Part shown: in pieces, positions 1 to 16,197 of the stretch | Layout: the number at the start of each line of letters is the position of its first letter | Position numbering within the stretch: the stretch's first letter is position 1 | NCBI GenBank assembly: GCA_000990145.1 | Contig: LBSW01000001.1 | Location: 1-16,335 of the forward strand | Direction of reading: 5' to 3' | Origin: Parcubacteria group bacterium GW2011_GWB1_37_13 | GTDB taxonomy: Bacteria; Patescibacteriota; Minisyncoccia; Phycocordibacterales; UBA9973 | Length of the DNA stretch: 16,335 nucleotides | Made by a program: the position numbers and the translations under genes | The notes under the pieces: model-generated | Told to the model about the DNA's origin: nothing | The model's input: the letters and a program-made list of their open reading frames with translations, nothing else | Databases searched by the model: none

Positions 1-1925
1 TTACATATGGCACGGGAGCAATTATGGCTGTGCCGGCGCATGATGAGCGGGATTTTGAGTTTGCAAAAAAATATAATTTGGAAATAAAAGAAGTTATTGA
101 ACCTCTTTTTGTCAAAGCTGATGGTGTGGATGCATTTCAAAAAGATAAACCCTTTTTTGAAAGAGATGCTGTTGTGTGTGTCATAAAACATTGGTCTGAA
201 AATAAATATTTGTGTTTAAATTGGAAAAAAATAGACTGGAGAGGTTTTGTCGTGGGTGGAATTGAAAGTGGTGAAAAAATCGAAGATACAGCCTTAAGGG
301 AAATTCAAGAAGAGACAGGTTATCAAAATATAAAATTTATAAGACCTTTACCTTTGGTTCATTCTAAATTTTTTCAGCCGGTAAAAAAAATAAACAGATT
401 TGCTCATTTCCATCCTGTTTACGTGGAACTAATTGATGGAAAAAGGAATGATGTGGCGCAGAGAGAAAAAGATTTACACGAAGCAGTTTGGCTTTCCAAA
501 CAAGAAGTTGAAAAATCATTGAATAGAGATGACATGAAAACTATTTGGAAATTTTTTAAAGACGGCGAATGTTTTAGCGGTTTAGGTTTAATTGCGAACT
601 CTGGAAAATTTAACGGTCTAGATTCCGAAAAAGCGAAAAAAGAAATTATAAAATTTGTCGGCGGAAAAGAAAAAACAACTTTCAAACTTCGCGATTGGAT
701 TTTCTCTAGGCAAAGATATTGGGGCGAGCCTATTCCGGTGATTCACTGTAGGGATTGCGGTATCGTGCCTGTGCCAGAAAAGGACTTGCCTGTAAAGCTT
801 CCGAAAGTGAAAAATTATCAACCGACGGATAGCGGAGAATCGCCGCTTGCAAATATTTCAAAATGGGTAAATACAAAATGCCCTAAGTGCAATGGCAAAG
901 CAAGAAGAGAAACCGACACAATGCCGAATTGGGCGGGAAGTTCTTGGTATTATTTGAGATACACTGATTCGAAAAATGATAAAGAATTTGCAAGTAAGAA
1001 AAATTTGGAATATTGGCTCGGCAAAAAAGAACTTGGTACTCCGACTACCAAGTGGAAGTCGGAGTACCAAGTTGGAGGCGTCGACTGGTATAACGGAGGC
1101 AATGAACACACTACTCTCCATCTTTTATATTCACGTTTCTGGCATAAATTTTTATATGATCTTAAGTTAGTGCCAACAAGCGAGCCGTATATGAAACGTA
1201 CTTCTCATGGGATGATTTTAGGCGAAGGGGGAGTGAAAATGTCCAAGTCGCTTGGAAATGTCATCAATCCAGACGATATTGTGAAAACATATGGCGCGGA
1301 CACGCTTCGTATTTATGAAATGTTTATGGGACCGTTTGACCAATCTGCCGTTTGGTCCACAGAAAGCATTATCGGAGCAAGAAGATTTATAGAAAAAGTT
1401 TGGAGAATAGGGGAGAAAGTACTTGGTAGTCGGAGTACCAAGTTACTTGGTACTCCGACTACCAAGTTATTGCATAAAACCATAAAAAAAGTTTCAGAAG
1501 ATATAGAAGAAATGCGTTTTAATACAGCAATCTCTTCAATGATGATTCTTGCGACAGAAATGGAATCCGCCTTCGCCAAAGGCCATGGCGCAACAAAGGA
1601 AGATTATAAAAAATTTCTGCAAATTTTTTCGCCATTTGCGCCGCATATAACGGAAGAATTATGGTCAATGCTTGGAGAAAAAAGTTCTATAAATCTTTCA
1701 AATTGGCCAAAATGGGACGAAAACTTGATAAAAGACGAAGAAGTGAAAATTGTCGTGCAAATAAATGGAAAAGTCAGGGTTGAATTAATGATTCCTGCCG
1801 ATCTTGAAGAAAAAGATGTAAGAAAAAAAGCTCTTGCGAATGAAGTTGTTTTAAGATATGTGGCTGGCAAGAATGTGAAAAAAGTCATTTATGTTAAAAA
1901 CAGACTTGTTAACATAGTTATTTAG
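1..1925 (+). CDS. leuS: Leucyl-tRNA synthetase, 3' part (5' end outside window), with embedded Nudix domain
   Basis: Class Ia synthetase that charges tRNA-Leu with leucine in the cytosol. The frame is open from base 3, and the first codons give the editing-domain motif TYGTGAIMAVPAHDERD, so the gene begins upstream and the ATG at 24 is internal. Counting residues from that ATG, a Nudix domain occupies about 33-175. The normal editing-domain end (ANSGKFNGLD), the RDWIFSRQRYWGEPIPVIHC catalytic motif, two CxxC pairs (CRDC, CPKC), KMSKS at 405-409 and the anticodon-binding domain follow. The C-terminus (VVQINGKV, then KLVNIV-like RLVNIVI) is complete. Two family A palindromes are read through in frame at 1031-1072 and 1421-1467, adding peptides around LGTPTTK. 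The first interrupts the usually continuous YW-P-VDxYxGG region of the catalytic core. No frameshift is seen, so the enzyme should be functional. Identity is certain; what the additions do is unknown. Confidence 0.97.
   Translation, partial: TYGTGAIMAVPAHDERDFEFAKKYNLEIKEVIEPLFVKADGVDAFQKDKPFFERDAVVCVIKHWSENKYLCLNWKKIDWRGFVVGGIESGEKIEDTALREIQEETGYQNIKFIRPLPLVHSKFFQPVKKINRFAHFHPVYVELIDGKRNDVAQREKDLHEAVWLSKQEVEKSLNRDDMKTIWKFFKDGECFSGLGLIANSGKFNGLDSEKAKKEIIKFVGGKEKTTFKLRDWIFSRQRYWGEPIPVIHCRDCGIVPVPEKDLPVKLPKVKNYQPTDSGESPLANISKWVNTKCPKCNGKARRETDTMPNWAGSSWYYLRYTDSKNDKEFASKKNLEYWLGKKELGTPTTKWKSEYQVGGVDWYNGGNEHTTLHLLYSRFWHKFLYDLKLVPTSEPYMKRTSHGMILGEGGVKMSKSLGNVINPDDIVKTYGADTLRIYEMFMGPFDQSAVWSTESIIGARRFIEKVWRIGEKVLGSRSTKLLGTPTTKLLHKTIKKVSEDIEEMRFNTAISSMMILATEMESAFAKGHGATKEDYKKFLQIFSPFAPHITEELWSMLGEKSSINLSNWPKWDENLIKDEEVKIVVQINGKVRVELMIPADLEEKDVRKKALANEVVLRYVAGKNVKKVIYVKNRLVNIVI
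123..560 (+). other. Nudix hydrolase-like domain embedded in the LeuRS editing region
   Basis: A complete Nudix box is read in the leuS frame at 255-323: G78, five residues, E84, seven residues, then REIQEETGY at 92-100, counting from the ATG at 24. This matches GX5EX7REUXEEXGU at every defined position, including the metal-binding REXXEE. About 45 residues before the box and 75 after it would fill a normal Nudix fold of roughly 130-150 residues. It falls between FAKKYNLEIKEVIEP and the resumption of LeuRS sequence at LIANSGKFNGLD, where ordinary LeuRS has only a short linker. An intact box suggests hydrolysis of a nucleoside-diphosphate-linked substrate or binding of a nucleotide, but the substrate cannot be told from sequence. 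Domain edges are approximate. Confidence 0.88.
1031..1072. repeat. Family A palindrome, copy A1, in frame within leuS
   Basis: A 42-nt inverted repeat with perfect 16-nt outer arms (1031-1046 and 1057-1072). With one inner mismatch the pairing reaches 19 bp around a 4-nt centre. The left side contains the whole 23-nt family A unit, an 8-bp stem ACTTGGTA/TACCAAGT with loop CTCCGAC. Exactly 14 codons long, it is read as the peptide ELGTPTTKWKSEYQ between YWLGKK and VGGVDWYNGG. Confidence 0.93.
1421..1467. repeat. Family A palindrome, copy A2, in frame within leuS
   Basis: A perfect 47-nt palindrome of two 23-nt units in opposite orientation (1421-1443 and 1445-1467) around a single T. Each unit is itself a hairpin with an 8-bp stem ACTTGGTA/TACCAAGT and a 7-nt loop (GTCGGAG or its complement). 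It is translated as LGSRSTKLLGTPTTKL in the anticodon-binding domain, between KVWRIGEKV and LHKTIKKV, a loop that varies in length in LeuRS. Confidence 0.95.
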
Positions 1926-1934
1926 CATAGTAGG

Positions 1935-1964
1935 TTGTGCTTTTAAATTAGACTATAGTATAAT
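1935..1964 (+). promoter_or_regulatory. Promoter of the O-antigen-ligase-like gene
   Basis: A consensus -10 box TATAAT (1959-1964) lies exactly 6 nt before the ATG at 1971. A weak -35 candidate, TTGTGC at 1935-1940, is 18 nt upstream. Transcription should start at or within a base or two of the ATG, giving a leaderless mRNA and fixing this start codon. No Shine-Dalgarno sequence is present. Confidence 0.7.
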
Positions 1965-1970
1965 GAACTT

Positions 1971-4112
1971 ATGTATACGAATATATTCGATCGGCTTTCG
2001 TTTCTGTCACTCTTTTTAGTTGTAGTATTATTGCCAGTTTTCTTTTTGCCTTTCACAAAAATACCGATTGAAATTTCTAAGGGGTTGCTTTTAGTGATGG
2101 GACTTACTCTTTGCATTATTTTTTGGGCGATAGCTCGATTTTTTGACGGCAAAATAAGTTTGCCTAAATCCGTGTGTTTATTGGGAGGCGGGGGTGTTGT
2201 TTTGATATTTTTTCTTTCAGCTTTTTTTTCAAAGGCTTCCCAAGTTTCTTTTTTTGGCACAGCGTTTGATATTGGATCTTTCTGGTTTATTTTTTCAGCT
2301 TTTCTTTTAATGTTCTGCTCTTCTATTATTTTTCGAAACTCCAAACAAGCTAAAATAGTTTTATTTGGGGCAATATTATCTTCTGCCTTTGTTTTAATTT
2401 TCCAAAGCATTCATTTGTTTTTCCCTAAAGCTCTATCGTTGGGAATCTTTGATGTCGCCGACAAAACCGCCAATATTTTAGGGTCCTGGAACGCTCTCGG
2501 ACTTTTTGCTGGATTTTCTGGCCTCCTTTTCCTTTTGGTGGTTGAATTTTTTCCAATTTCTAAAACAGAAAAAATAATACTCCAGATATTCATTTTACTT
2601 TCAATGCTATTGGTGGCTTCTATAAATTTCCTGCTAGTTTGGATACTTCTCGGGATTTCCAGCTTGATTATTTTTGTTTACAAAGCTTCTAATACTTTTA
2701 AAAGAAATGAAACTGGAGAAGGTGGTGAGAAAACCGAAAGCGACAAAAAACATTTCCCCGCAGTTTCTTTTGTTGTTGTTATTATATCTTTATTGTTCCT
2801 TTTGAATCCGTTAGTACCCATAATACCAGGAATGTTTCCTGATTATCTGGATAACATCATTCCAACCCGCTTGCAAATATCAAGCAATGAAATCAGTCCA
2901 TCTTTTTCTTCCACAATGGTGGTGACCAAATCAGTGCTAAAAGAAAAACCTATTCTGGGCATAGGTCCGAATAAATTTGGAGAAGCTTGGGCAAGTTATA
3001 AACCTTCCGCTGTGAATAAGACTGTATTTTGGGATGTCGCTTTTAACTCTGGTTCGGGATTATTGCCAACTCTTGTTTCCACCACCGGGTATCTTGGCAT
3101 ACTCGCTTGGCTTATTTTTTTCGTGTTGCTTATAACAAGCGGCGTAAAATTTATTTTTTCCAGCATTAAAAATAGCGCAAATTGGGAAACGATGGCATTT
3201 TTCGTGTTGTCTCTTTATTTGTTTGTCTCTTCCTTTTTATACTCTACAGGACCAGTGATATTTTTATTGGCCTTCGTTTTTACCGGAGTATTCATAGGAT
3301 TGTCTGCATCCAACAGTCCGAATGGAGAAGTCTCATTATCTTTTTTAAACGATCACAGAAAAAGTTTTTTCTCAATGTTGTCTATTATCCTCATAATTAT
3401 CATTTCTGCCGCTACTTCGTTTAAATACATAGAACGCTTTGTTTCCTTTTCTTATTTTAGAAAAGCGATCTCATCCCCAACTGCTCCAGAATCCCTTGCT
3501 TCCATCAATAGAGCTCTGACGCTTTATTCAAATGATTTATATCTGCGCACTTATGCGCAGATATATCTATTAAAATTTAGTTCTCTAATCAGCAAAGGAA
3601 CATCCTTATCTGAGGCAGAAAAAGCTGAATTGCAGGTAGATTTAGATCAGGCAGTGAATGGCGCTCAATTGGCAACGACATATAATCCAAAAAATTATTT
3701 AAATTTCCAAGTGCTTGGTTCTATATATCAAAACTTTGCTTTATTTGGCGTTGAAGATATTTACAGTAAAGCAATTGAAGCTTACAAAACGGCATCGGCC
3801 TTAAATCCGCTTAATCCAGGACTTAAGCTTGAAATAGCAAGCTCCTCTCTTGCTGATGGAAAAATAGAAGAAGCGAAGAATTATGCCAATCTTGCGCTTT
3901 CCCTTAAACCAGATTATGTCAATACTTTTATAGTTCTTTCTCAGATAGCAAAAAAAGAAGGGGATAATGCAAGCGCTCTTTCTTACGCGCGAACAGCTCT
4001 CTCCCTCTCTCCCGCAGACAAAAGTTTAATACAATATGTTGATTCTTTGAAAAATGAAGCTATTCCGAATCCAGTTACTCCTCCTAGCACGACTGATAAG
4101 AAAAAGCCGTAA
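1971..4112 (+). CDS. Polytopic membrane protein, O-antigen ligase/Wzy-like, with C-terminal TPR repeats
   Basis: A 713-residue protein with two parts. Residues about 1-485 hold roughly a dozen hydrophobic segments, and a long non-membrane stretch between about 285 and 365 contains KEKPILGIGPNKF (G330 region), which resembles the GxGxGxF loop of O-antigen ligase and Wzy polymerases. Residues about 500-700 are helical TPR-like repeats, for example IYSKAIEAYKTASALNPLNP followed by EEAKNYANLALSLKPDY and ASALSYARTALSLSPADK. The tail is Pro/Thr/Lys-rich. Such proteins polymerise or transfer lipid-linked glycans on the outer face of the membrane. The next gene, murJ, begins 5 nt after the stop, suggesting co-transcription and a cell-envelope role. 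The start is set by a leaderless promoter. Fold assignment is moderately sure; the glycan substrate is unknown. Confidence 0.8.
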   Translation: MYTNIFDRLSFLSLFLVVVLLPVFFLPFTKIPIEISKGLLLVMGLTLCIIFWAIARFFDGKISLPKSVCLLGGGGVVLIFFLSAFFSKASQVSFFGTAFDIGSFWFIFSAFLLMFCSSIIFRNSKQAKIVLFGAILSSAFVLIFQSIHLFFPKALSLGIFDVADKTANILGSWNALGLFAGFSGLLFLLVVEFFPISKTEKIILQIFILLSMLLVASINFLLVWILLGISSLIIFVYKASNTFKRNETGEGGEKTESDKKHFPAVSFVVVIISLLFLLNPLVPIIPGMFPDYLDNIIPTRLQISSNEISPSFSSTMVVTKSVLKEKPILGIGPNKFGEAWASYKPSAVNKTVFWDVAFNSGSGLLPTLVSTTGYLGILAWLIFFVLLITSGVKFIFSSIKNSANWETMAFFVLSLYLFVSSFLYSTGPVIFLLAFVFTGVFIGLSASNSPNGEVSLSFLNDHRKSFFSMLSIILIIIISAATSFKYIERFVSFSYFRKAISSPTAPESLASINRALTLYSNDLYLRTYAQIYLLKFSSLISKGTSLSEAEKAELQVDLDQAVNGAQLATTYNPKNYLNFQVLGSIYQNFALFGVEDIYSKAIEAYKTASALNPLNPGLKLEIASSSLADGKIEEAKNYANLALSLKPDYVNTFIVLSQIAKKEGDNASALSYARTALSLSPADKSLIQYVDSLKNEAIPNPVTPPSTTDKKKP
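3538..3565. repeat. Perfect 12-bp inverted repeat inside the TPR region
   Basis: Arms 3538-3549 and 3554-3565 (TATATCTGCGCA and its complement) flank a 4-nt spacer. It encodes LYLRTYAQIYL. It is a single hairpin, unlike the doubled elements elsewhere, so it may be a decayed element or chance. Confidence 0.6.
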
Positions 4113-4117
4113 GAAAG

Positions 4118-5797
4118 ATGGATAGGATATTAAGAATTTTTGGCAAAGAATATGTAAACATAAATCAGGCCGCGCTTCTCTTGGGCCTCTTTGCTTCTCT
4201 CTCTCAAATATTAGGACTATTTCGCGATCGCGCCATTGCGCATTTTATTGGACCGTCGCCTTTATTAGATGCTTATTATGCCGCTTTTAGAGTGCCAGAT
4301 TTTATATTCATATCCATAGCTTCCCTTGTTTCCATTACCGTTCTTATTCCTTTTATTTTAGAAAAAAATAAAGGAGAAAATGTCAGCAACGAGGCAAAAA
4401 AGTTCTTGAATGATATATTTACTGTCTTTTTGGCGGTTATAATATTTGTTTCTATTGCGGCTTTCTTTCTTATGCCGTATCTTACTTCAATAATCGCTCC
4501 CGGATTTTCGTTGCCTATGCAAAATAAAGTCGTTGAACTTTCCAGGATTATGCTCCTTTCTCCGATTTTGCTCGGACTTTCAAATCTTTTTGGAACAGTC
4601 ACTCAGCTTTTTCGAAAGTTTTTTATTTATGCTTTAAGCCCGATTTTTTACAATTTTGGCATAATCATAGGTATTTTATTTTTATATCCAATTTTTGGAA
4701 TCCATGGTCTTGTATTCGGAGTTGTTTTGGGCGCCCTGATGCACTTTTTGATTCAAGCTTTTTCCTCTATAAGATGCGGATTTGCGCCGCATTTGGAATG
4801 GGGGATTAATTTTGAAGATATTAAAAAAACGATTCTTGTGTCTCTTCCCAGAACCTTAGGTCTTTCTTTTAATAATATTGCGCTCATACTTATTGTTTCC
4901 TTTGCGTCGTATTTGGAGAGCGGATCAATTTCTGTTTTTAATTTTTCTTTCAATTTACAATCCGTGCCTCTGGGTATTATTGGCCTTTCTTATGCTGTGG
5001 CGGCTTTTCCTACTCTTACTAGGTCTTATGCGTTTGGCAAAATAGATGAATTTAGAGATCACCTGCAGTCTGCCGCTCGGGCTATAATTTTTTGGTCTCT
5101 GCCTGTTACTTTTCTTTTTATAGTTCTTCGCGCGCAGATCGTTCGGGTTATTTTGGGTTCCGGATCTTTTTCCTGGGAAAATACTCGTCTAGTGGCGGCT
5201 GGTCTCGCGCTTTTTTCAATTTCCATAATGGCGCAGGGACTTATCGCTCTTTTTGCCCGGGCCTACTATGCGCGAGGCGACACCTATCGTCCACTTCTGA
5301 TTAATTTTTTTTCCTCCATTTTTATTGTTATATTTTCTATCTTACTTATTTATATTTTTAACCATTATTCAGGTTTTAAATATTTTATAGAGTCTGCTCT
5401 GAAAGTGTCCAATATTCCCGGGACCGATGTATTAATGCTTCCATTATCTTATTCGCTGGGTACGGTAATAAATTTCATTTTGCTTTGGTTCTTTACAAGA
5501 AAAGATTTTGTACGAAAAGATCGATCTTTATTTAAAATTTTTACTCAAAGTTTGAGCGCTTCATTTTTTATCGGACTTACGGCTTATATAAGTTTGAATA
5601 TTTTTTCCCCGATTTTCGGCACTACTACATTCTTTGGAGTGTTTTTGCAAGGATTTATTTCCGGCATTTTAGGCATTTTGGCGGGCATTTTAGTGTTGCA
5701 TCTTTTTAAAAATGAAGAATTAAAAGATATCGCGAAAGCTCTTAAAACCAAATTTTGGCGCGCTAAAGTTATCGCTTCACCCCAAGAAGGGCTTTAA
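4118..5797 (+). CDS. murJ: Lipid II flippase MurJ (MviN family)
   Basis: A 559-residue integral membrane protein of the MOP superfamily that flips lipid II to the outer face for peptidoglycan synthesis. The N-terminus carries the family signature LGLFRDRAIAHFIG (R36, D37, R38), then LLDAYYAAFRVPDF with D51 and R58. This matches the RD and DA-x5-FRxP motifs whose arginines line the substrate cavity in characterised MurJ. Around 14 hydrophobic segments span the length, including SLPRTLGLS in the middle and a QGLIALFARAYYARGDT motif near residue 375-390, both typical. The C-terminal tail is short and basic. It starts 5 nt after the preceding stop with no clear ribosome binding site (only GAAAG), so it is probably expressed from the upstream promoter. 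Family identity is secure. Confidence 0.95.
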   Translation: MDRILRIFGKEYVNINQAALLLGLFASLSQILGLFRDRAIAHFIGPSPLLDAYYAAFRVPDFIFISIASLVSITVLIPFILEKNKGENVSNEAKKFLNDIFTVFLAVIIFVSIAAFFLMPYLTSIIAPGFSLPMQNKVVELSRIMLLSPILLGLSNLFGTVTQLFRKFFIYALSPIFYNFGIIIGILFLYPIFGIHGLVFGVVLGALMHFLIQAFSSIRCGFAPHLEWGINFEDIKKTILVSLPRTLGLSFNNIALILIVSFASYLESGSISVFNFSFNLQSVPLGIIGLSYAVAAFPTLTRSYAFGKIDEFRDHLQSAARAIIFWSLPVTFLFIVLRAQIVRVILGSGSFSWENTRLVAAGLALFSISIMAQGLIALFARAYYARGDTYRPLLINFFSSIFIVIFSILLIYIFNHYSGFKYFIESALKVSNIPGTDVLMLPLSYSLGTVINFILLWFFTRKDFVRKDRSLFKIFTQSLSASFFIGLTAYISLNIFSPIFGTTTFFGVFLQGFISGILGILAGILVLHLFKNEELKDIAKALKTKFWRAKVIASPQEGL

Positions 5798-5836
5798 TAA
5801 TTGGTTAATCTGCCAGACTAACTAATTTTCTAAGCT

Positions 5837-5864
5837 TTGAAATAAAGGCTTTTTCTGTTAGAAT
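5837..5864 (+). promoter_or_regulatory. Promoter of the ABC exporter-lepA operon
   Basis: TTGAAA (5837-5842), a 16-nt spacer and TAGAAT (5859-5864), preceded by TG at 5856-5857 as an extended -10. The ATG lies 15 nt after the -10, so the leader would be about 9 nt, too short for a usual Shine-Dalgarno arrangement, and none is seen. Confidence 0.6.
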
Positions 5865-5879
5865 GAAATTTTACAAGTT

Positions 5880-7691
5880 ATGGAAAAGGATTATTCAAAT
5901 TTGCACCGAGTATTGGTGCTTAAATATTTTTGGCAGGTAATTAAACACTTCAAAGTGTCTTTTTTTGCCGTGATTATTCTTACAATAATCACTTCAGCTC
6001 TTGATGTTTTTATACCGCTCCAATACTTAAAACTTTGGAATGTTTTAAGTATTAATAATTTTACCGTTATAGAAGTGGCCAAGTCCATCATTATTTTTAT
6101 TTTACTGTTGAACTTTTTGCGCTGGGTGCTTCGCAGAATTTCTGGATTTTCGCTTTCATACTTTGAAGCAAGAACTATGGCAGGTCTCCGCGAGCAGGCC
6201 TTTGATTATTTGATTGGACATTCACATTCATTTTTTGCAAACAATTTTAGCGGTTCGTTGACTCAAAGAATAAATAAATACGCCAGAGCTTTTGAAAGAA
6301 TAACCGACAGAATAATGACTGATGGTCTGCCGCTTTTTGTCCGCAGTTTAGGAACAGTTATTGCGATCTATAGTTTATTTCCAAAATATTCTTACATTTT
6401 AGGAATTTTTTGCATAGTGTTTTTATTAACAGCTTTTATCTATATTCACTATAAATTAAAATACGATATCATTGCTTCAGAAACTGATTCAAGAACTACC
6501 GGCGCTTTGTCTGACTCAATCAGCAATCATTCTTCAATTCAATTGTTTACCGGCCACGAATACGAGAAAGAACATATGGGTAAAATTATAGAAGACCAAA
6601 GAAAAAAGACATCTTTCAATTGGTATTTATGGGAAGGACTTGGCGCGATAGAAAGTTTTTACTCGCTTGTCATTGAATTTATAATTTTTTGGGTTGTTCT
6701 TGGAGACTGGAAGCTCGGTCTCATAACATTACCCGTTATTGTTTTGTTGCAGAATTATTTAATTCGTCTAATTGAAAATTTATGGAGCTTTGGCGCTATC
6801 GTGCGCACATATTATGAAAGTTTTGCCGATGCTGAAGAAATGGCTGTTATTTTGAGCACTCCATATGAAATTATGGATAAACCGGCGCAAGTTGCGGAAG
6901 CCTTGTTTCCGCTAGTTAGCGGAAACAAGGCTTCCGCAACAATAGGAAAAGTGATCTTTGACAAGATTACATACATTTATGCTGATAATTATTATAAAGT
7001 ATTAGATAATTTTTCCTTGACCATTCCAGCCGGACAAAAAATTGCGATTGTCGGTTCTTCCGGGGCGGGGAAGACTACTTTTGTGCGCCTCTTAATGAGA
7101 TTATTTAATATTAATTCCGGAAGAATTTTAATTGATGGAATTGATATTAGTGATATTTCTCAAAAAAGTCTTCGCGAAAAAATTTCTTTCGTGCCGCAAG
7201 ATCCTGTTCTTTTTCACCGGACTTTATTGGAAAATATTCGCTATGGCAGGCGTGATGCAACCGATGAAGAAGTTTTAACTGCGGCTCATCTTGCGCACTG
7301 CGATGAATTTATCGACGCTCTGCCAAATGGCTATCAAACTTATGTTGGAGAAAGGGGAATAAAGCTGTCGGGCGGGGAACGCCAGCGTGTTGCCATTGCT
7401 CGAGCTATTCTAAAAAATGCCCCGATTCTTATTCTTGATGAAGCAACTTCCTCGCTTGATTCTCATTCTGAATCTTTGATTCAAGATGCATTCCATACTC
7501 TTATTAAGGGAAAGACGACAATTGTCATTGCGCACCGGCTTTCAACTATCCGAGAAATGGACAGAATTATTGTGCTCGAAAAAGGAAAAATTATTGAAGA
7601 TGGTACTCACAAAGAACTTGCCAATAAAAAAGATGGACTATATAAAAAATTATGGGATCTCCAAGCAGGAGGATTTAAAAATACAATTTAA
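5880..7691 (+). CDS. ABC exporter, fused membrane and ATPase domains (MsbA/MDR-like half transporter)
   Basis: A 603-residue half transporter, expected to work as a homodimer. Residues about 20-320 form the six-helix exporter membrane domain and about 355-595 the ATPase. ATPase motifs are intact: Walker A GSSGAGKTT at 392-400, Q-loop Gln440 in FVPQDP, signature LSGGERQ at 496-502, Walker B ILILDE with D520 and E521, and switch His552 in IAHRLS. Residues 338-354, in the linker between domains, are encoded by the family B palindrome at 6891-6940. The linker is a flexible site that should tolerate extra residues. The gene has its own extended -10 promoter and is followed by lepA after 5 nt. The transported substrate cannot be told; lipids, peptides or drugs are all possible. 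Confidence 0.93.
   Translation: MEKDYSNLHRVLVLKYFWQVIKHFKVSFFAVIILTIITSALDVFIPLQYLKLWNVLSINNFTVIEVAKSIIIFILLLNFLRWVLRRISGFSLSYFEARTMAGLREQAFDYLIGHSHSFFANNFSGSLTQRINKYARAFERITDRIMTDGLPLFVRSLGTVIAIYSLFPKYSYILGIFCIVFLLTAFIYIHYKLKYDIIASETDSRTTGALSDSISNHSSIQLFTGHEYEKEHMGKIIEDQRKKTSFNWYLWEGLGAIESFYSLVIEFIIFWVVLGDWKLGLITLPVIVLLQNYLIRLIENLWSFGAIVRTYYESFADAEEMAVILSTPYEIMDKPAQVAEALFPLVSGNKASATIGKVIFDKITYIYADNYYKVLDNFSLTIPAGQKIAIVGSSGAGKTTFVRLLMRLFNINSGRILIDGIDISDISQKSLREKISFVPQDPVLFHRTLLENIRYGRRDATDEEVLTAAHLAHCDEFIDALPNGYQTYVGERGIKLSGGERQRVAIARAILKNAPILILDEATSSLDSHSESLIQDAFHTLIKGKTTIVIAHRLSTIREMDRIIVLEKGKIIEDGTHKELANKKDGLYKKLWDLQAGGFKNTI
6022..6053. repeat. Perfect 12-bp inverted repeat near the start of the ABC exporter gene
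   Basis: Arms AATACTTAAAAC (6022-6033) and its complement (6042-6053) flank an 8-nt spacer and encode LQYLKLWNVLSI. It is AT-rich and single, so it may be an old element or coincidence. Confidence 0.5.
6891..6940. repeat. Family B palindrome in frame within the ABC exporter gene
   Basis: A perfect 50-nt palindrome with 24-nt arms (6891-6914 and 6917-6940) around GT. Each arm contains a smaller hairpin, stem GCGGAA/TTCCGC with the 7-nt loop GCCTTGT. This is the same design as family A with unrelated sequence. It is read as VAEALFPLVSGNKASA. Of its three frames only the one used is free of stops; the others meet TAG. Confidence 0.95.
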
Positions 7692-7696
7692 TTCAA

Positions 7697-9553
7697 ATGG
7701 ATTTAAAATATATCAGAAATTTTTCAATAATAGCTCACATAGATCACGGCAAAAGCACTTTGGCGGATAGGATGCTTGAGATTACTCATACTGTTCCGGA
7801 GCGTTTAATGCGCGACCAGGTGCTTGATTCTATGGAGCTTGAACGAGAGCGGGGAATTACTATCAAAATGCAACCGGTTCGTATGGAATACACTTCTAAT
7901 TTGGTAGTCGGACTACCAAGTGGTAGTCCGACTACCAAATATGTTCTGAATCTGATTGACACCCCGGGTCACATTGATTTTTCTTATGAAGTTTCTCGCT
8001 CTCTAAAGGCCGTGGAGGGTTCTATTTTGCTGGTTGACTCTACTCAAGGGGTACAGGCGCAAACGCTTACTACGCTTGCTATGGCTCGCGAGGAGGGCCT
8101 TGAAGAGGGCAGAAAGATTATTATTCCCGTGCTTTCTAAAATTGATTCGCCTCTTTCCAGGGTATCTGAAGTAAAGGAAGAAGTCGTAAAACTTCTGGAT
8201 TGCGATCCTGGTGAAATACTTTTAGTATCGGGCCGTACAGGAGAAGGAGTGGAAAATCTTCTGCAAGAAATTATTAAACGCGTTCCAGAACCGGCGGAAA
8301 ATTACCAATATAAGGATAATAATAACGTCTTGCGCGCTCTTGTTTTTGATTTTAAATATTCAAATCATCGAGGGGTTATAGTTTTTGTGAGAATTTTAGA
8401 CGGCAAAGTGAAAAAAGGCGAAAGTCTAATTTTTGCGGTATCGGGCGAGAAATTTATTGCACTCGAAGTTGGCATTTTTTTGCCGGAAGAAACTTCGCGC
8501 GAATCTCTCGCTTCGGGTGAAATAGGTTATATTGTTACAGGAATTAAAAAACCTGGAATAGCGTCTGTTGGCGATAGCATTACAAAATTTGCGAATCCTT
8601 TGCCGGCGCTTCCCGGTTATACGCAACCTATGCCTGTAGTTTGGGCAAGTGTTTTTCCGGAAAATGCGAATGACTTTCCTATGCTCAAGTTGGCCTTGGG
8701 TAAATTGAAACTTTCCGACTCCTCTTTCTCATATGAAGAAGAATCTTCAGGATCTTTAGGCAAGGGATTTCGTTGCGGTTTTTTGGGAATGTTGCATTTG
8801 GAAATTATAACCGAGAGACTAAAACGAGAATTTAATTTAAGTCTGGTTATCACCACACCTTCGATTGTGTATGAAGTAGTGAATAATAACGGCAAAAAAG
8901 AAAAAATTTATTCTCCATATTTTTTTCCAGATGATGGAAATATTAAAACTGTCTTTGAACCGTGGGTGACAGCGCGAATAATCGTGCCGGTTAAATATTT
9001 AGGCGGTATTATGCAAATTTTATTTGATCATGAAGCAGAGGTGGGAGAAACGGAAAACTTTGGAGATAATCGTTCGTCCATATCTGTGAAAATGCCGCTT
9101 CGCGAACTGATGCGCAATTTTTTTGATGAATTAAAAAGCATTTCGTCCGGCTATGGATCAATATCTTATGATATCGCAGAAATGCGCGAAGCTAATGTTA
9201 CCCGGCTTGATATTTTAGTTGCTAATGAGCCTGTTCCCGCTTTTTCTAAAGTTATTTCTAAAAAAAGAGTGGGAATTGAAGCAGAAAATTCTGTTGCCAA
9301 ATTGGAGAATCTCTTGCCTCGTCAGATGTTCACTTTAAAAATTCAGGGCAGGGCGTTAGGACGCATTATCTCATCCGCTACTCTTTCGGGTATGAAAAAA
9401 GATGTCACTGCCCATATGTATGGAGGCGATATCACTCGTAAAATGAAACTTCGTGAAAAGCAGAAAAAAGGCAAGAAAAAAATGAAAGAAAGAGGACGAG
9501 TAAACATCCCGCAAGACGTGTTTTTAAAAATGATGCGCAACGGAGAGAATTAA
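7697..9553 (+). CDS. lepA: Elongation factor 4 (LepA), ribosome back-translocating GTPase
   Basis: A 618-residue translational GTPase, slightly longer than the usual ~600. The G domain is clear: P-loop AHIDHGKST at 13-21, switch I RGIT at 52-55, DTPG at 88-91, and SKIDSP as the G4 motif. The EF4-specific C-terminus is present (GGDITRKMKLREKQKKGKK and NIPQDVFL), which separates it from EF-G. EF4 acts on stalled or mistranslocated ribosomes. Residues 68-81 (NLVVGLPSGSPTTK) come from palindrome A3 and lengthen the loop just before the strand leading into DTPG. Palindrome A4 overlaps the last base of the stop codon. The start lies 5 nt after the ABC exporter stop with no Shine-Dalgarno sequence in range, so the pair is probably one transcript. 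Confidence 0.97.
   Translation: MDLKYIRNFSIIAHIDHGKSTLADRMLEITHTVPERLMRDQVLDSMELERERGITIKMQPVRMEYTSNLVVGLPSGSPTTKYVLNLIDTPGHIDFSYEVSRSLKAVEGSILLVDSTQGVQAQTLTTLAMAREEGLEEGRKIIIPVLSKIDSPLSRVSEVKEEVVKLLDCDPGEILLVSGRTGEGVENLLQEIIKRVPEPAENYQYKDNNNVLRALVFDFKYSNHRGVIVFVRILDGKVKKGESLIFAVSGEKFIALEVGIFLPEETSRESLASGEIGYIVTGIKKPGIASVGDSITKFANPLPALPGYTQPMPVVWASVFPENANDFPMLKLALGKLKLSDSSFSYEEESSGSLGKGFRCGFLGMLHLEIITERLKREFNLSLVITTPSIVYEVVNNNGKKEKIYSPYFFPDDGNIKTVFEPWVTARIIVPVKYLGGIMQILFDHEAEVGETENFGDNRSSISVKMPLRELMRNFFDELKSISSGYGSISYDIAEMREANVTRLDILVANEPVPAFSKVISKKRVGIEAENSVAKLENLLPRQMFTLKIQGRALGRIISSATLSGMKKDVTAHMYGGDITRKMKLREKQKKGKKKMKERGRVNIPQDVFLKMMRNGEN
7899..7940. repeat. Family A palindrome, copy A3, in frame within lepA
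   Basis: A perfect 42-nt palindrome with 20-nt arms (7899-7918 and 7921-7940) around AG. It keeps the TTGGTA/TACCAA stem, but the loop is GTCGGAC instead of GTCGGAG. It supplies 14 codons (NLVVGLPSGSPTTK). The second half uses the same frame as the leuS copies (GSPTTK against GTPTTK), while the first half uses another frame. Confidence 0.95.
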
Positions 9554-9596
9554 ACTTGGTAGTCGGAGTACCAAGTGGTACTCCGACTACCAAGTT
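9553..9596. repeat. Family A palindrome, copy A4, across the lepA stop codon
   Basis: A perfect 44-nt palindrome with 21-nt arms (9553-9573 and 9576-9596) around AG, made of two opposed family A units. Its first base is the last base of the lepA TAA. It lies between lepA and the convergent 37-codon gene ending at 9602, so it could end transcription from either side, though no T-run follows on either strand. Confidence 0.95.
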
Positions 9597-12524: not shown

Positions 12525-12563
12525 CGCAAGATTTCGCAAGAACGGTTCTTGCGAAATCTTGCG
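12525..12563. repeat. Family C palindrome upstream of the RAYT gene
   Basis: A perfect 39-nt palindrome with 19-nt arms around a G at 12544. The core is CGCAAG/CTTGCG with the 7-nt loop AACGGTT. On the left, ATTTCGCAAG is repeated in tandem (12521-12540). It lies between the glycerate kinase stop and the transposase promoter, and its core reappears at the 3' end of the transposase gene. Confidence 0.95.
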
Positions 12564-12582: not shown

Positions 12583-13338
12583 ATGTTTCGCAAAGATCTA
12601 TTTATTACAGGCGAGTATTATCATATTTATAATCGTGGCATAGATAAAAGAATAATTTTTAAACTAAAAAGAGATTACGAAAGATTCATGATACTCCTTT
12701 ATCTTGCAAATTCTAACGATTCTTTTCGGCTTGACGACATTTTAAATAAACAACACAAAACCTTTAGTGAAATTTTGGTGTTAGACAAAGGTGAATCACT
12801 TGTTTCAATCGGTGCATGGTGTCTCATGTCGAATCATTTTCATCTTTTAGTTAGACAAGAGGTTGATGGTGGAATTACTAAATTTATGAGAAAGTTGGGT
12901 GTAGGATATTCAATGTTTTTTAATATAAAATATCAAAGAACTGGGTCTTTGTTTGGAGGACTTTTTAAATCAAAATTGATTGGTGTTGATGATAATTATA
13001 TGAGGCAATTGTTTGGATATATTCACATTAATCCTGTTGAAATAGAATTTCCTGAGTGGAAAAATAAAATTAATAAATCCTCAGTTAATATGAAGAAATT
13101 TCTTGAATCCTACAGATATTCCAGCTATCTTGATTATGTGGATGAAGATAGAATAGAAAAGAACATAATTGCAAGGGAAAACTTTCCTGATTATTTTCAT
13201 GATACTCAATCTTTTAAAGACTTTATAGAGAATTATTTTTCAAATTCGCAAGCAAGTTCGCAAGAACGGTTCTTGCGAACTCTTGCGAATTTGAGTTGTA
13301 GAAATGAAAGCACAACTGGTGATAGATTTCTATTCTAA
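12583..13338 (+). CDS. REP-associated tyrosine transposase (RAYT), IS200-like Y1 HUH nuclease
   Basis: A 251-residue single-strand DNA transposase of the Y1/IS200 superfamily, RAYT branch. The metal-binding HUH motif is H85-F86-H87 in WCLMSNHFHLLV. The helix with the candidate nucleophilic tyrosine is FGYIHINPVE (Y146, with Y139 as alternative), and YHIYNRGIDKRIIF near the N-terminus is the usual first strand. RAYTs cut and join REP palindromes and are single-copy domesticated relatives of IS200 transposases. Here the gene is bracketed by two related palindromes (12525-12563 and 13241-13293). The second is inside the gene and encodes residues 220-237, so the C-terminus may have been rewritten by insertion. 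Key motifs are intact, so activity is plausible. The gene's last 9 bases overlap the convergent gene ending at 13330. Confidence 0.93.
   Translation: MFRKDLFITGEYYHIYNRGIDKRIIFKLKRDYERFMILLYLANSNDSFRLDDILNKQHKTFSEILVLDKGESLVSIGAWCLMSNHFHLLVRQEVDGGITKFMRKLGVGYSMFFNIKYQRTGSLFGGLFKSKLIGVDDNYMRQLFGYIHINPVEIEFPEWKNKINKSSVNMKKFLESYRYSSYLDYVDEDRIEKNIIARENFPDYFHDTQSFKDFIENYFSNSQASSQERFLRTLANLSCRNESTTGDRFLF
13241..13293. repeat. Family C palindrome inside the 3' end of the RAYT gene
   Basis: A 53-nt inverted repeat centred on G 13268, with outer arms CAAATTCGCAAG and its complement. The inner core TTCGCAAGAAC-G-GTTCTTGCGAA is shared with the upstream copy. The only flaw is a 2-nt bulge (CA) in the left arm. 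It is translated in the transposase frame as residues 220-237. Confidence 0.93.
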
Positions 13339-14932: not shown

Positions 14933-16177
14933 ATGGCTTCGCAATTCAATTGTCTGATTAGTAAAATTGAAGCAGAAGAAATCAAAGATTCTCACGGTGC
15001 TCCGACCATCAAGGTTACAGTTTGGGCTGGCGCTAGTTCAGACAGTTTTTCGGTTCCATCTGGCGTCAGCACCGGTATTTACGAAGCTTGTGAATTAAGA
15101 GATGAAGATGGAAAAGGCGTAAAAAAATCTATCGACAGAGTAAATAATATTATTGCCGCGTCCTTGATTGGATTTGATGTTAGAAATCAAAAGAAAATAG
15201 ATGAAGTAATGATAAAACTTGATGGAACTCCGAATAAAGGTAATTTGGGAGGAAATTCTATGGTCGGTGTTAGTATCGCTTGCGCCAAAGTTGCGGCAAA
15301 AGTTACCAATCAAGAAATATATCAACATTTGCGAACACTCGCGAAAATAAAACCATCTCGTAAAGCGCCGTATCTTTTTATGAATTTAATTGAAGGCGGC
15401 AAACATACGAACAATGGTCTCTCTTTTCAGGAATACCACATTGTGCCCCAAATTGATGACATAAAAGAGGCTATTGAAATTGGAATTAAGGTTCAGGATA
15501 CGTTGAAAGAAATTATTATTAAAAATTTGGGCGAAGAATCCACTGCTCTGGGCGATGAAGGGGGATTTGCGCCGAAAATAAATGATATTCAAAAGCCGTT
15601 TCTTTATTTAACTGAAGCTATAAATAAAAATAATTTGCAGAATAAAGTTCGTCTGGCTCTGGATGTGGCGGCTTCGTCGTTTTACGAGAACGGATCTTAC
15701 AGAATTTCCGGGGAACAGCTTTCCAAAGAGGAACTAATGGCTGTCTATAATTCTCTAATTAAAGAATTTAATTTGATTTCCATTGAAGACCCGTTTAACG
15801 AAGAAGATTTTGAAAGTTTTAGAAAATTAAAAGAACAGCATCAAAACTTTTTAGTTGTGGGAGATGATTTAACCGTTTCCAATCTAAAACTTCTGCAAAA
15901 AGCGATAAAAAATAGCAGTATAAATGGAATGATTGTTAAGCCAAATCAAATCGGCACGCTTTCAGAAACTTTAGAAGTGATGAAACTGGCTCGGGAAAAC
16001 GGTATTGAACTTATTGTCAGTCATCGGGGCGAAGAAACCGATGATGATTTTATTGCCGATTTGGCTTTTGCCTTTAATTGTTTCGGTTTAAAATCCGGTT
16101 CTCCTAAAAAACCTGAAAGAATGGTAAAATACAAGAGATTAATGAATATTATAAATTCACAGGGGAACCCTGTGTAA
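14933..16177 (+). CDS. eno: Enolase (phosphopyruvate hydratase), divergent
   Basis: A 414-residue enzyme that interconverts 2-phosphoglycerate and PEP. Catalytic and metal residues are present: H158, E167 and E209 (LGDEGGFAP), metal ligands D244, E285 and D311, bases K336 (VKPNQIGT) and K387 (LKSGSP). The active-site loop is SGVSTG. Two motifs differ from standard enolase: DSRGNPT reads DSHGAPT (19-25) and SHRSGET reads SHRGEET (363-369), losing the serine next to the phosphate-binding arginine while R365 is kept. The last residues (SQGNPV) and the TAA stop come from the family D palindrome, so the native C-terminus may have been replaced. PEP synthase follows after 33 nt. With the glycerate kinase upstream it forms a lower-glycolysis group. 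Confidence 0.95.
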   Translation: MASQFNCLISKIEAEEIKDSHGAPTIKVTVWAGASSDSFSVPSGVSTGIYEACELRDEDGKGVKKSIDRVNNIIAASLIGFDVRNQKKIDEVMIKLDGTPNKGNLGGNSMVGVSIACAKVAAKVTNQEIYQHLRTLAKIKPSRKAPYLFMNLIEGGKHTNNGLSFQEYHIVPQIDDIKEAIEIGIKVQDTLKEIIIKNLGEESTALGDEGGFAPKINDIQKPFLYLTEAINKNNLQNKVRLALDVAASSFYENGSYRISGEQLSKEELMAVYNSLIKEFNLISIEDPFNEEDFESFRKLKEQHQNFLVVGDDLTVSNLKLLQKAIKNSSINGMIVKPNQIGTLSETLEVMKLARENGIELIVSHRGEETDDDFIADLAFAFNCFGLKSGSPKKPERMVKYKRLMNIINSQGNPV

Positions 16178-16197
16178 TTACACAGGGTTCCCCTGTG
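16158..16197. repeat. Family D palindrome carrying the eno stop codon
   Basis: A perfect 40-nt palindrome with 20-nt arms and no spacer. Each arm holds a small hairpin (CACAGGG, GAA, CCCTGTG), the same doubled design as families A and B. The eno stop TAA (16175-16177) is the end of the left arm, at the exact centre. There is no T-run after it, so it is not a standard terminator. Confidence 0.95.

Follow-up and report, generated by a model that had tools for sequence, protein, structure and literature searches.

In-frame palindromes, apparently translated as extra protein loops, in core genes of a Parcubacteria bacterium and their link to RAYT transposases

Palindromes at the leuS and lepA locus and across the host genome

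The window analysed here is the first 16,335 nucleotides, forward strand, of contig LBSW01000001.1 (C1 below) of Parcubacteria group bacterium GW2011_GWB1_37_13 (assembly GCA_000990145.1). It carries the genes leuS and lepA together with a short palindromic element, referred to as family A, that lies within or directly beside them (Table 1). Eight 23-nt family A units were found in the window, arranged as four inverted pairs, and every pair is predicted to form a single RNA hairpin with an energy of -31.6 to -38.2 kcal/mol, which is 9-12 standard deviations under that of shuffled sequences. The window also holds palindromes of other families and the gene of a putative REP-associated tyrosine transposase (RAYT), REP standing for repetitive extragenic palindrome.

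Table 1. Palindromes and associated genes in the window
Positions	Strand	Feature	Basis
1031..1072	+	Family A doublet, 42 nt, in frame in leuS (site 1), peptide ELGTPTTKWKSEYQV	Unit search, translation, folding
1421..1467	+	Family A, two complete units separated by one base (47 nt), in frame within leuS (site 2), VLGSRSTKLLGTPTTKL	
7899..7940	+	Family A doublet, GACTACC variant, 42 nt, in frame in lepA, peptide NLVVGLPSGSPTTK	
9554..9595	+	Family A doublet, 42 nt, intergenic, directly 3' of the lepA stop codon	
3..1925	+	leuS, 5' end beyond the contig; NUDIX domain in the editing region	Pfam
7697..9553	+	lepA (elongation factor 4)	Pfam; solved EF4 5imq
6891..6940	+	Perfect palindromic doublet of another family, 50 nt, in frame in an ABC transporter gene (VAEALFPLVSGNKASAT)	
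12525..12563	.	Palindrome upstream of the window RAYT, core TTCGCAAGAACGGTTCTTGCGAA	
12583..13338	+	RAYT-like Y1 transposase gene, other palindrome family	PF01797; HxH and Tyr conserved
13255..13281	.	Second copy of the window RAYT palindrome, inside the RAYT coding sequence towards its 3' end	
16158..16197	.	Palindromic doublet of the family flanking the contig C36 RAYT; supplies the end of eno and its stop codon	

All four family A places named in the original prediction are present, the fourth with its boundaries refined, and the three copies it had placed in frame, two in leuS and one in lepA, are read through without a stop. The lengths of 42 or 47 nt that it gave agree with three copies of 42 nt and with leuS site 2. 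Its claim that a single unit leaves five of the six frames open was borne out in a check by eye; in the common doublet two of the three phases are open, in one variant one, and in the leuS variant all three. The genes had also been described as essential for translation. Both are core genes, but strict essentiality does not hold for LepA, a core translation GTPase that is not strictly essential.

The host assembly comprises 443,034 bp in 46 contigs and is 78% complete; several Candidatus Nomurabacteria are among the nearest named relatives of its LepA. A search with the 23-nt unit at up to three mismatches, which gave no control matches, and a search with a looser pattern, CTTGGN{9,13}CCAAG, together located family A at 13 places, 12 of them inside open reading frames (ORFs) and in frame. 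The original prediction had proposed a genome-wide count of copies inside and between genes and had staked itself on further copies being there, and nine more places indeed lie outside the window: in PBP2 (C4), in pheT and twice in ligA (C7), in a second leuS (C21), in rsmI, atpC and atpG (C23), and in fmt (C28). Gene names were assigned with NCBIfam and Pfam, pheT (cut by a contig end) and PBP2 scoring under the curated cut-off. In ligA both doublets have been shortened or have decayed. A chance origin of family A was rejected on the contrast between 13 places and the control results, with no match for the unit and, for the looser pattern, one per strand against 19 per strand in the genome. 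The matches of the looser pattern on C2 and C32 look unrelated. A sister family is present in pepN (C4:2560). ORFs of 150 aa or more cover 84.5% of the 81 kb of host genome examined, and genes are therefore not avoided by the doublets.

Doublets and their insertion sites in related genomes

Family A was surveyed, at up to two mismatches, in 60 genomes of the genus or order (G-numbers below), namely the host's own, 35 congeneric and 24 of the same order. It was found in eight of the 60, that is, in seven of the 59 others. Copies away from RAYT genes lie within ligA in G020 and G035 and between ORFs in G039; in G001 the copy falls where an ORF ends, next to masked bases.

Doublets of any family were then sought in 80 genus genomes, the host included, with a pattern that allowed a 36-44 core and required an overlapping centre, so that spaced doublets were not counted. 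This gave 26 matches in 11 genomes and none in the reversed control. One match (L172) was dropped because its arms are unpaired (13.5 mismatches), leaving 25 real doublets. All 25 are 42 nt long (14 codons), with units that overlap by 4 nt, and 24 of them lie in frame inside ORFs, the sole exception being the window copy at 9554. Perfect palindromy, save for the central pair, is seen in 21 of the 25, although the arms vary between families. When the doublets are aligned along the gene, A stands at position -1 in 23 and T at +1 in 24; no target motif was found at the other positions, 12 on each side, where information content is at most 0.62 bits. The genes hit include rpoB, dnaE, infB, rnr, purD, an M50 protease gene, an R3H protein gene and an atpH-like ORF (142 aa). 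Some targets recur between species: ligA in three, and gyrB (G034 and G002), pheT and rsmI in two each, these last three at the same site.

The reading phase of the genic doublets is strongly biased. The phase used is open in all 24, and in 21 it is phase 2; three phases are open in 15 doublets, two in six and one in three. Among the 15 with three open phases, 12 are read in phase 2 and three in phase 0 (p = 2.9e-4), and the tail over all 24 is about 8e-6, both values assuming independent insertions although some sites are homologous. The two leuS copies account for two of the three phase 0 doublets. The phase 2 peptides (xLVVGxPxGxPTTK, xLEALPPLGGKASK) are free of the Trp found in other phases, and selection on the peptide is therefore a likely cause of the bias; a targeting bias may also account for the preference.

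LepA was found in all 60 genomes, and the best 30 loci were examined. The insertion site is a hairpin tip ahead of YVLNLIDTPGH. In the window it is filled by family A, in G030, G034 and G001 by three other doublet families or variants, and in at least 10 of the 30 loci the loop is short and free of any element. AtpG (30 loci, two with the wrong ORF) resembles LepA in holding mixed families or none, and two sites in LigA, where 28 of 30 loci could be aligned, showed the same mixed occupancy. A broader named set supplied 73 LepA sequences for scoring: 64 have a short loop, five a long non-palindromic loop and four a long palindromic loop, a class defined by a threshold of our own. Had the inserted residues been conserved ancestral sequence, as the original prediction allowed, relatives should carry them; that explanation was rejected, since the lepA and ligA sites hold other families or none. 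Filled alleles of LepA and LigA often lack the ancestral loop residues, and the element thus seems to replace them. On the same ground, the idea that the element was simply added to the ancestral loop was rejected at several sites.

The window LepA has nine residues more than solved EF4 (5imq). In a predicted model of it (mean pLDDT 78.8, 31 sequences), the element occupies a beta-hairpin loop that connects strands 61-67 and 80-86 and in which residues 73-76 fall under pLDDT 50.

Other inserts occur in the same loops of these relatives. Several LepA loops carry C-rich or ERSEG-type inserts. The further types (lepA, L073-L096; ligA, L185-L213; and L052) comprise C-rich palindromes encoding TPSPLPxxGEG-like peptides, CCTGAGCGAAGCGAAGG encoding PERSEGQ and, in ligA of G035, LPAGRQ.

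The second leuS, on C21 (L031), carries family A at the position of leuS site 1. In blocks of 60 bases the C1 gene (around window 120-660) and the C21 gene are 73-100% identical outside the NUDIX insert and about 47-65% identical inside it; they may be strain variants, products of recombination or paralogues. To our knowledge, a NUDIX domain within LeuRS is unusual.

Association with RAYT transposases

The host genome has eight Y1_Tnp genes. A RAYT flanked by family A is found in three congeners (G027, G003 and G002), with more units in frame inside the RAYT ORF; a relative of the G027 RAYT is present in 56 of the 80 genus genomes (E <=1e-8). To compare loci, 38 were taken: the eight of the host, and 30 others that matched the G027 RAYT best, with one taken from each genome. 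The set is thus not random; six had no ORF under the rule applied and one duplicate was removed, so that 31 were scored. Exact matches of at least 14 nt between the two flanks were found for 21 of 31 RAYTs against 13 of 930 cross-locus pairs, and between flank and own ORF for 23 of 31 against 38 of 930. An own-ORF copy is present in two of six host RAYTs, the duplicated locus being counted once. Within the RAYT, the main palindrome site is directly before the LV..AYC..NHxH strand.

These proteins belong to Pfam PF01797. In an alignment of 29 RAYT sequences, H81, H83 and Y104 are invariant (HxH and Tyr), and we take Y104 to be the catalytic Tyr. The alignment profile matched no solved RAYT and gave weak matches to solved structures named transposase (2xm3, E 0.26), and a search of solved structures with a single RAYT sequence gave none. 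In a sample of the phylum, Y1_Tnp was detected in 54 of 116 genomes. Of 29 new loci returned from it, 22 had an ORF, and five of these carry an internal copy of the flank, against 2 of 462 cross pairs. All five are among the 14 RAYT-like ORFs and none of the seven IS200-type ORFs has an internal copy of at least 14 nt, the two classes having been assigned by inspection of the sequences.

The doublets themselves were matched to RAYT-linked units. All 25 match such a unit from the genus at 19-21 of 21 bases, on a scale where sister families, which have the outer stem in common, reach about 16-18 and unrelated loci about 13-15. For eight doublets the match (20-21 of 21) is to a RAYT of the same genome (three in G001, two in G030, one each in G034, G066 and G096), which is a lower bound because partial RAYT sets were used for the doublet genomes, with none for G006. 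Ten further inserts were compared in this way. The lepA inserts of G030 (20/21; also one of the 25) and G034 (22/23) are closest to a unit of their own genome. Four match the RAYT unit of another genome: lepA of G001 (20/21, against 14 to its own), atpG of G014, ligA of G080 and ligA site 2 of G063. The remaining four have no good match among the RAYTs fetched; they are the ABC transporter palindrome of the window (best 14/19), atpG of G066 and of G026, and ligA site 2 of G067. Units of similar appearance to the ABC transporter doublet, GCGGAAGTCGGACTTCCGC, were noted in atpG of other species.

The RAYT in the window belongs to a different family. Its start at 12583 was picked by eye (the listed ORF begins at 12559), and its palindrome has no dispersed copies at up to three mismatches, so nothing points to it as the mover of family A. 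For the family of the C36 RAYT, both the RAYT and one dispersed doublet, that in eno, are in the host genome. Two other kinds of palindrome were observed in passing. A separate AT-rich family, TTGATAA..GCATATGC..TTATCAA, has three copies in the contigs examined, each intergenic (L031:1499-1534, L032:4325-4362 and L033:4237-4278), and fmt contains a second in-frame palindrome (GRGLQMQASP, L032:5083-5112) near its family A copy.

Interpretation and relation to known elements

The phenomenon is real and more general than originally predicted: the copies, their 42-nt length and in-frame location, the match to RAYT flanks, and the mixed families at homologous sites alongside element-free relatives can all be read from the sequences. 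Most probably, the palindromes are elements of the REPIN type (REP doublets forming hairpins) that are mobilised by RAYTs and have been filtered for, or adapted to, coding sequence, and they are apparently translated as extra protein loops in core genes. Family A would then be one of several REPIN-like families, each made of two inverted REP-like units in one hairpin, usually of 42 nt. The RAYT, a transposase of single-stranded DNA bearing HxH and Tyr motifs, would recognise its own palindrome and spread the doublet, and selection would remove insertions that break the frame or bring a stop. With a length of 14 codons, and with two or three phases open in 21 of the 24 genic copies, doublets in protein surface loops would survive and be translated as short loops. 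We infer that the RAYT is the mover, that the peptides are probably made and tolerated, and that location and phase are set by selection rather than by targeting.

REPINs have been defined in extragenic space, with mobilisation by RAYTs predicted (PMC3116915), and REPtrons and Y1 classes have been described (PMC8266576, PMC6006769). As in the REPINs of PMC3116915, the units here are inverted in a hairpin, a family-specific RAYT is bordered by its own palindromes, and a genome holds several families and RAYTs. In contrast to those REPINs, which are extragenic and abundant, with 71 and 110 bp as common distances between REPs, the elements here measure 42 nt with a 4-nt unit overlap, are genic in 24 of 25 cases, are few, and have own-family copies inside the RAYT gene. 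REPs inside genes have been reported in several species, including in genes for DNA ligase, tRNA synthetases and DNA polymerases; over half of these are dimers or groups, and 20-30 aa are encoded (PMC3733652). Such GTAG/CGTC REPs resemble our doublets as in-frame dimers in core genes with occasional reuse of a site (recB), but most of them are intergenic, and their units bear a GTAG or CGTC tag. The parts of that paper on intragenic REPs mention neither bacteria of the candidate phyla radiation (CPR) nor copies inside the RAYT gene.

IS200/IS605 elements have a Y1 HUH transposase bordered by hairpins. They have PF01797 in common with the RAYTs, but the IS200-type ORFs sampled were free of internal flank copies, and the doublets described here are non-autonomous.

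Measured against classical REPs, the system has the short imperfect palindromic unit (23 nt), the inverted hairpin doublet and the RAYT with HxH and Tyr, and in congeners palindromes of the same family flank the RAYT. It behaves like a REPIN-RAYT system with mainly genic doublets and departs from classical REPs in location, tag and copy number. We treat it as a variant rather than a full classical REP, because intragenic members are in print and yet the location is not extragenic.

A number of observations weigh against RAYT-driven REPINs in coding sequence. No family A RAYT was found in the 78%-complete host assembly (best 14/21), and in G027, G002 and G003 family A at up to two mismatches is confined to the RAYT locus (G002 has one 3-mismatch copy in a neighbouring ORF, beside masked bases); for family A, the mover and well-dispersed copies have thus never been seen together. 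Neither an excision product nor a duplicated target was observed. The GTAG/CGTC tag is absent from the 12 positions on each side of the 25 doublets, and 13 places in 443 kb is a low count, although REP families vary widely in size and many have 20-100 units or even fewer (PMC3733652). Two family A copies in G039, of the same order, lie between ORFs. Doublets with spaced units, and hence not of 42 nt, exist at leuS site 2 and in lepA of G001. The element often replaces a loop rather than lengthening it. The view that LeuRS had gained insertions stood for site 1, with 19 residues more than solved LeuRS 1h3n, and failed for site 2, where the net gain in length is zero.

It is unlikely that the palindromes are relatives of the Rickettsia palindromic elements (RPEs) spread by some mechanism other than RAYTs. 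The original prediction named RPEs as the nearest parallel, and the likeness in function holds: both are palindromic and lie in frame in many unrelated core genes, and family A is without its RAYT in the host assembly. Kinship is closer, however, to REPINs and their RAYTs, to which the palindromes described here are physically linked and with which they co-vary. Cognate palindromes flank RAYTs far above the cross-locus background, and the doublets match RAYT-linked units. RPEs, in-frame palindromes in unrelated metabolic genes, are about 150 bp long and have no transposase named for them in the parts of PMC10969869 that describe them, against 42 nt and a RAYT link here. Moreover, PMC3733652, where the majority of REPs are intergenic, itself groups RPE-4 and RPE-6, the R. 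conorii repeats, with REPs.

A host function with an origin unrelated to transposition, such as RNA hairpins, protein-binding sites or selected loops, seems improbable to a similar degree. The recurrent sites in lepA, ligA, pheT, rsmI and gyrB would fit such a function, as would the strong phase bias and the near-perfect palindromy kept despite differing arms. On the other hand, presence is sporadic (11 of 80 genomes by the doublet pattern), the same sites are filled by unrelated families or are empty, and the target genes have no known common regulation.

That the elements are skipped in translation or removed from RNA, in the manner of byp elements (mitochondrial translational bypass elements) or tiny introns, so that the peptides are never made, is very unlikely. 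Hairpins of about 40 nt in coding genes, very stable as RNA, are what it would predict; a skipped sequence, however, needs neither frame nor freedom from stops, yet in all 24 genic doublets the phase used is free of stops, 21 of them sharing one phase, and the length of the 25 doublets found by the pattern is divisible by three, an indirect test made from sequence. An assembly or amplification artefact is almost certainly not the cause, for although these are draft metagenome assemblies and inverted repeats are a known class of artefact, 11 genomes share the 42-nt architecture, each family having a sequence of its own, and 24 of 25 doublets are in frame in ORFs.

Both REPs lying in frame within genes and Rickettsia palindromic elements have been published before. 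A palindromic coding repeat is reportedly on record for Mollicutes as well. New here are the Patescibacteria host, the mainly genic location, the 14-codon length, the phase bias and the self-embedding in the RAYT gene. The original prediction knew of no description in CPR bacteria, and our literature search, which mostly did not extend to subscription papers, likewise found nothing on RAYT palindromes in CPR genes; a term search of PMC6006769 returned no mention of CPR, Parcubacteria, Microgenomates or Patescibacteria.

A further proposal is tentative and may well be wrong: in Patescibacteria the RAYT-REPIN system could have evolved into a coding mobile element, a portable 14-codon loop exchanged among the surface loops of core enzymes in place of the old loop. 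The in-frame palindromes of the RAYT could then give it self-control, since it could bind its own gene or mRNA through them, and the transposase and its palindrome would be forced to co-evolve.

The wider interest lies in protein-coding palindromes tied to a candidate transposase in streamlined genomes with scant intergenic room. They offer a natural test of how well individual loops in LeuRS, LepA, DNA ligase, GyrB or RpoB tolerate 14 new residues, and they advise caution, as such loops in proteins of candidate phyla may be mobile DNA. They also allow the movement of REPINs by RAYTs to be put to the test.

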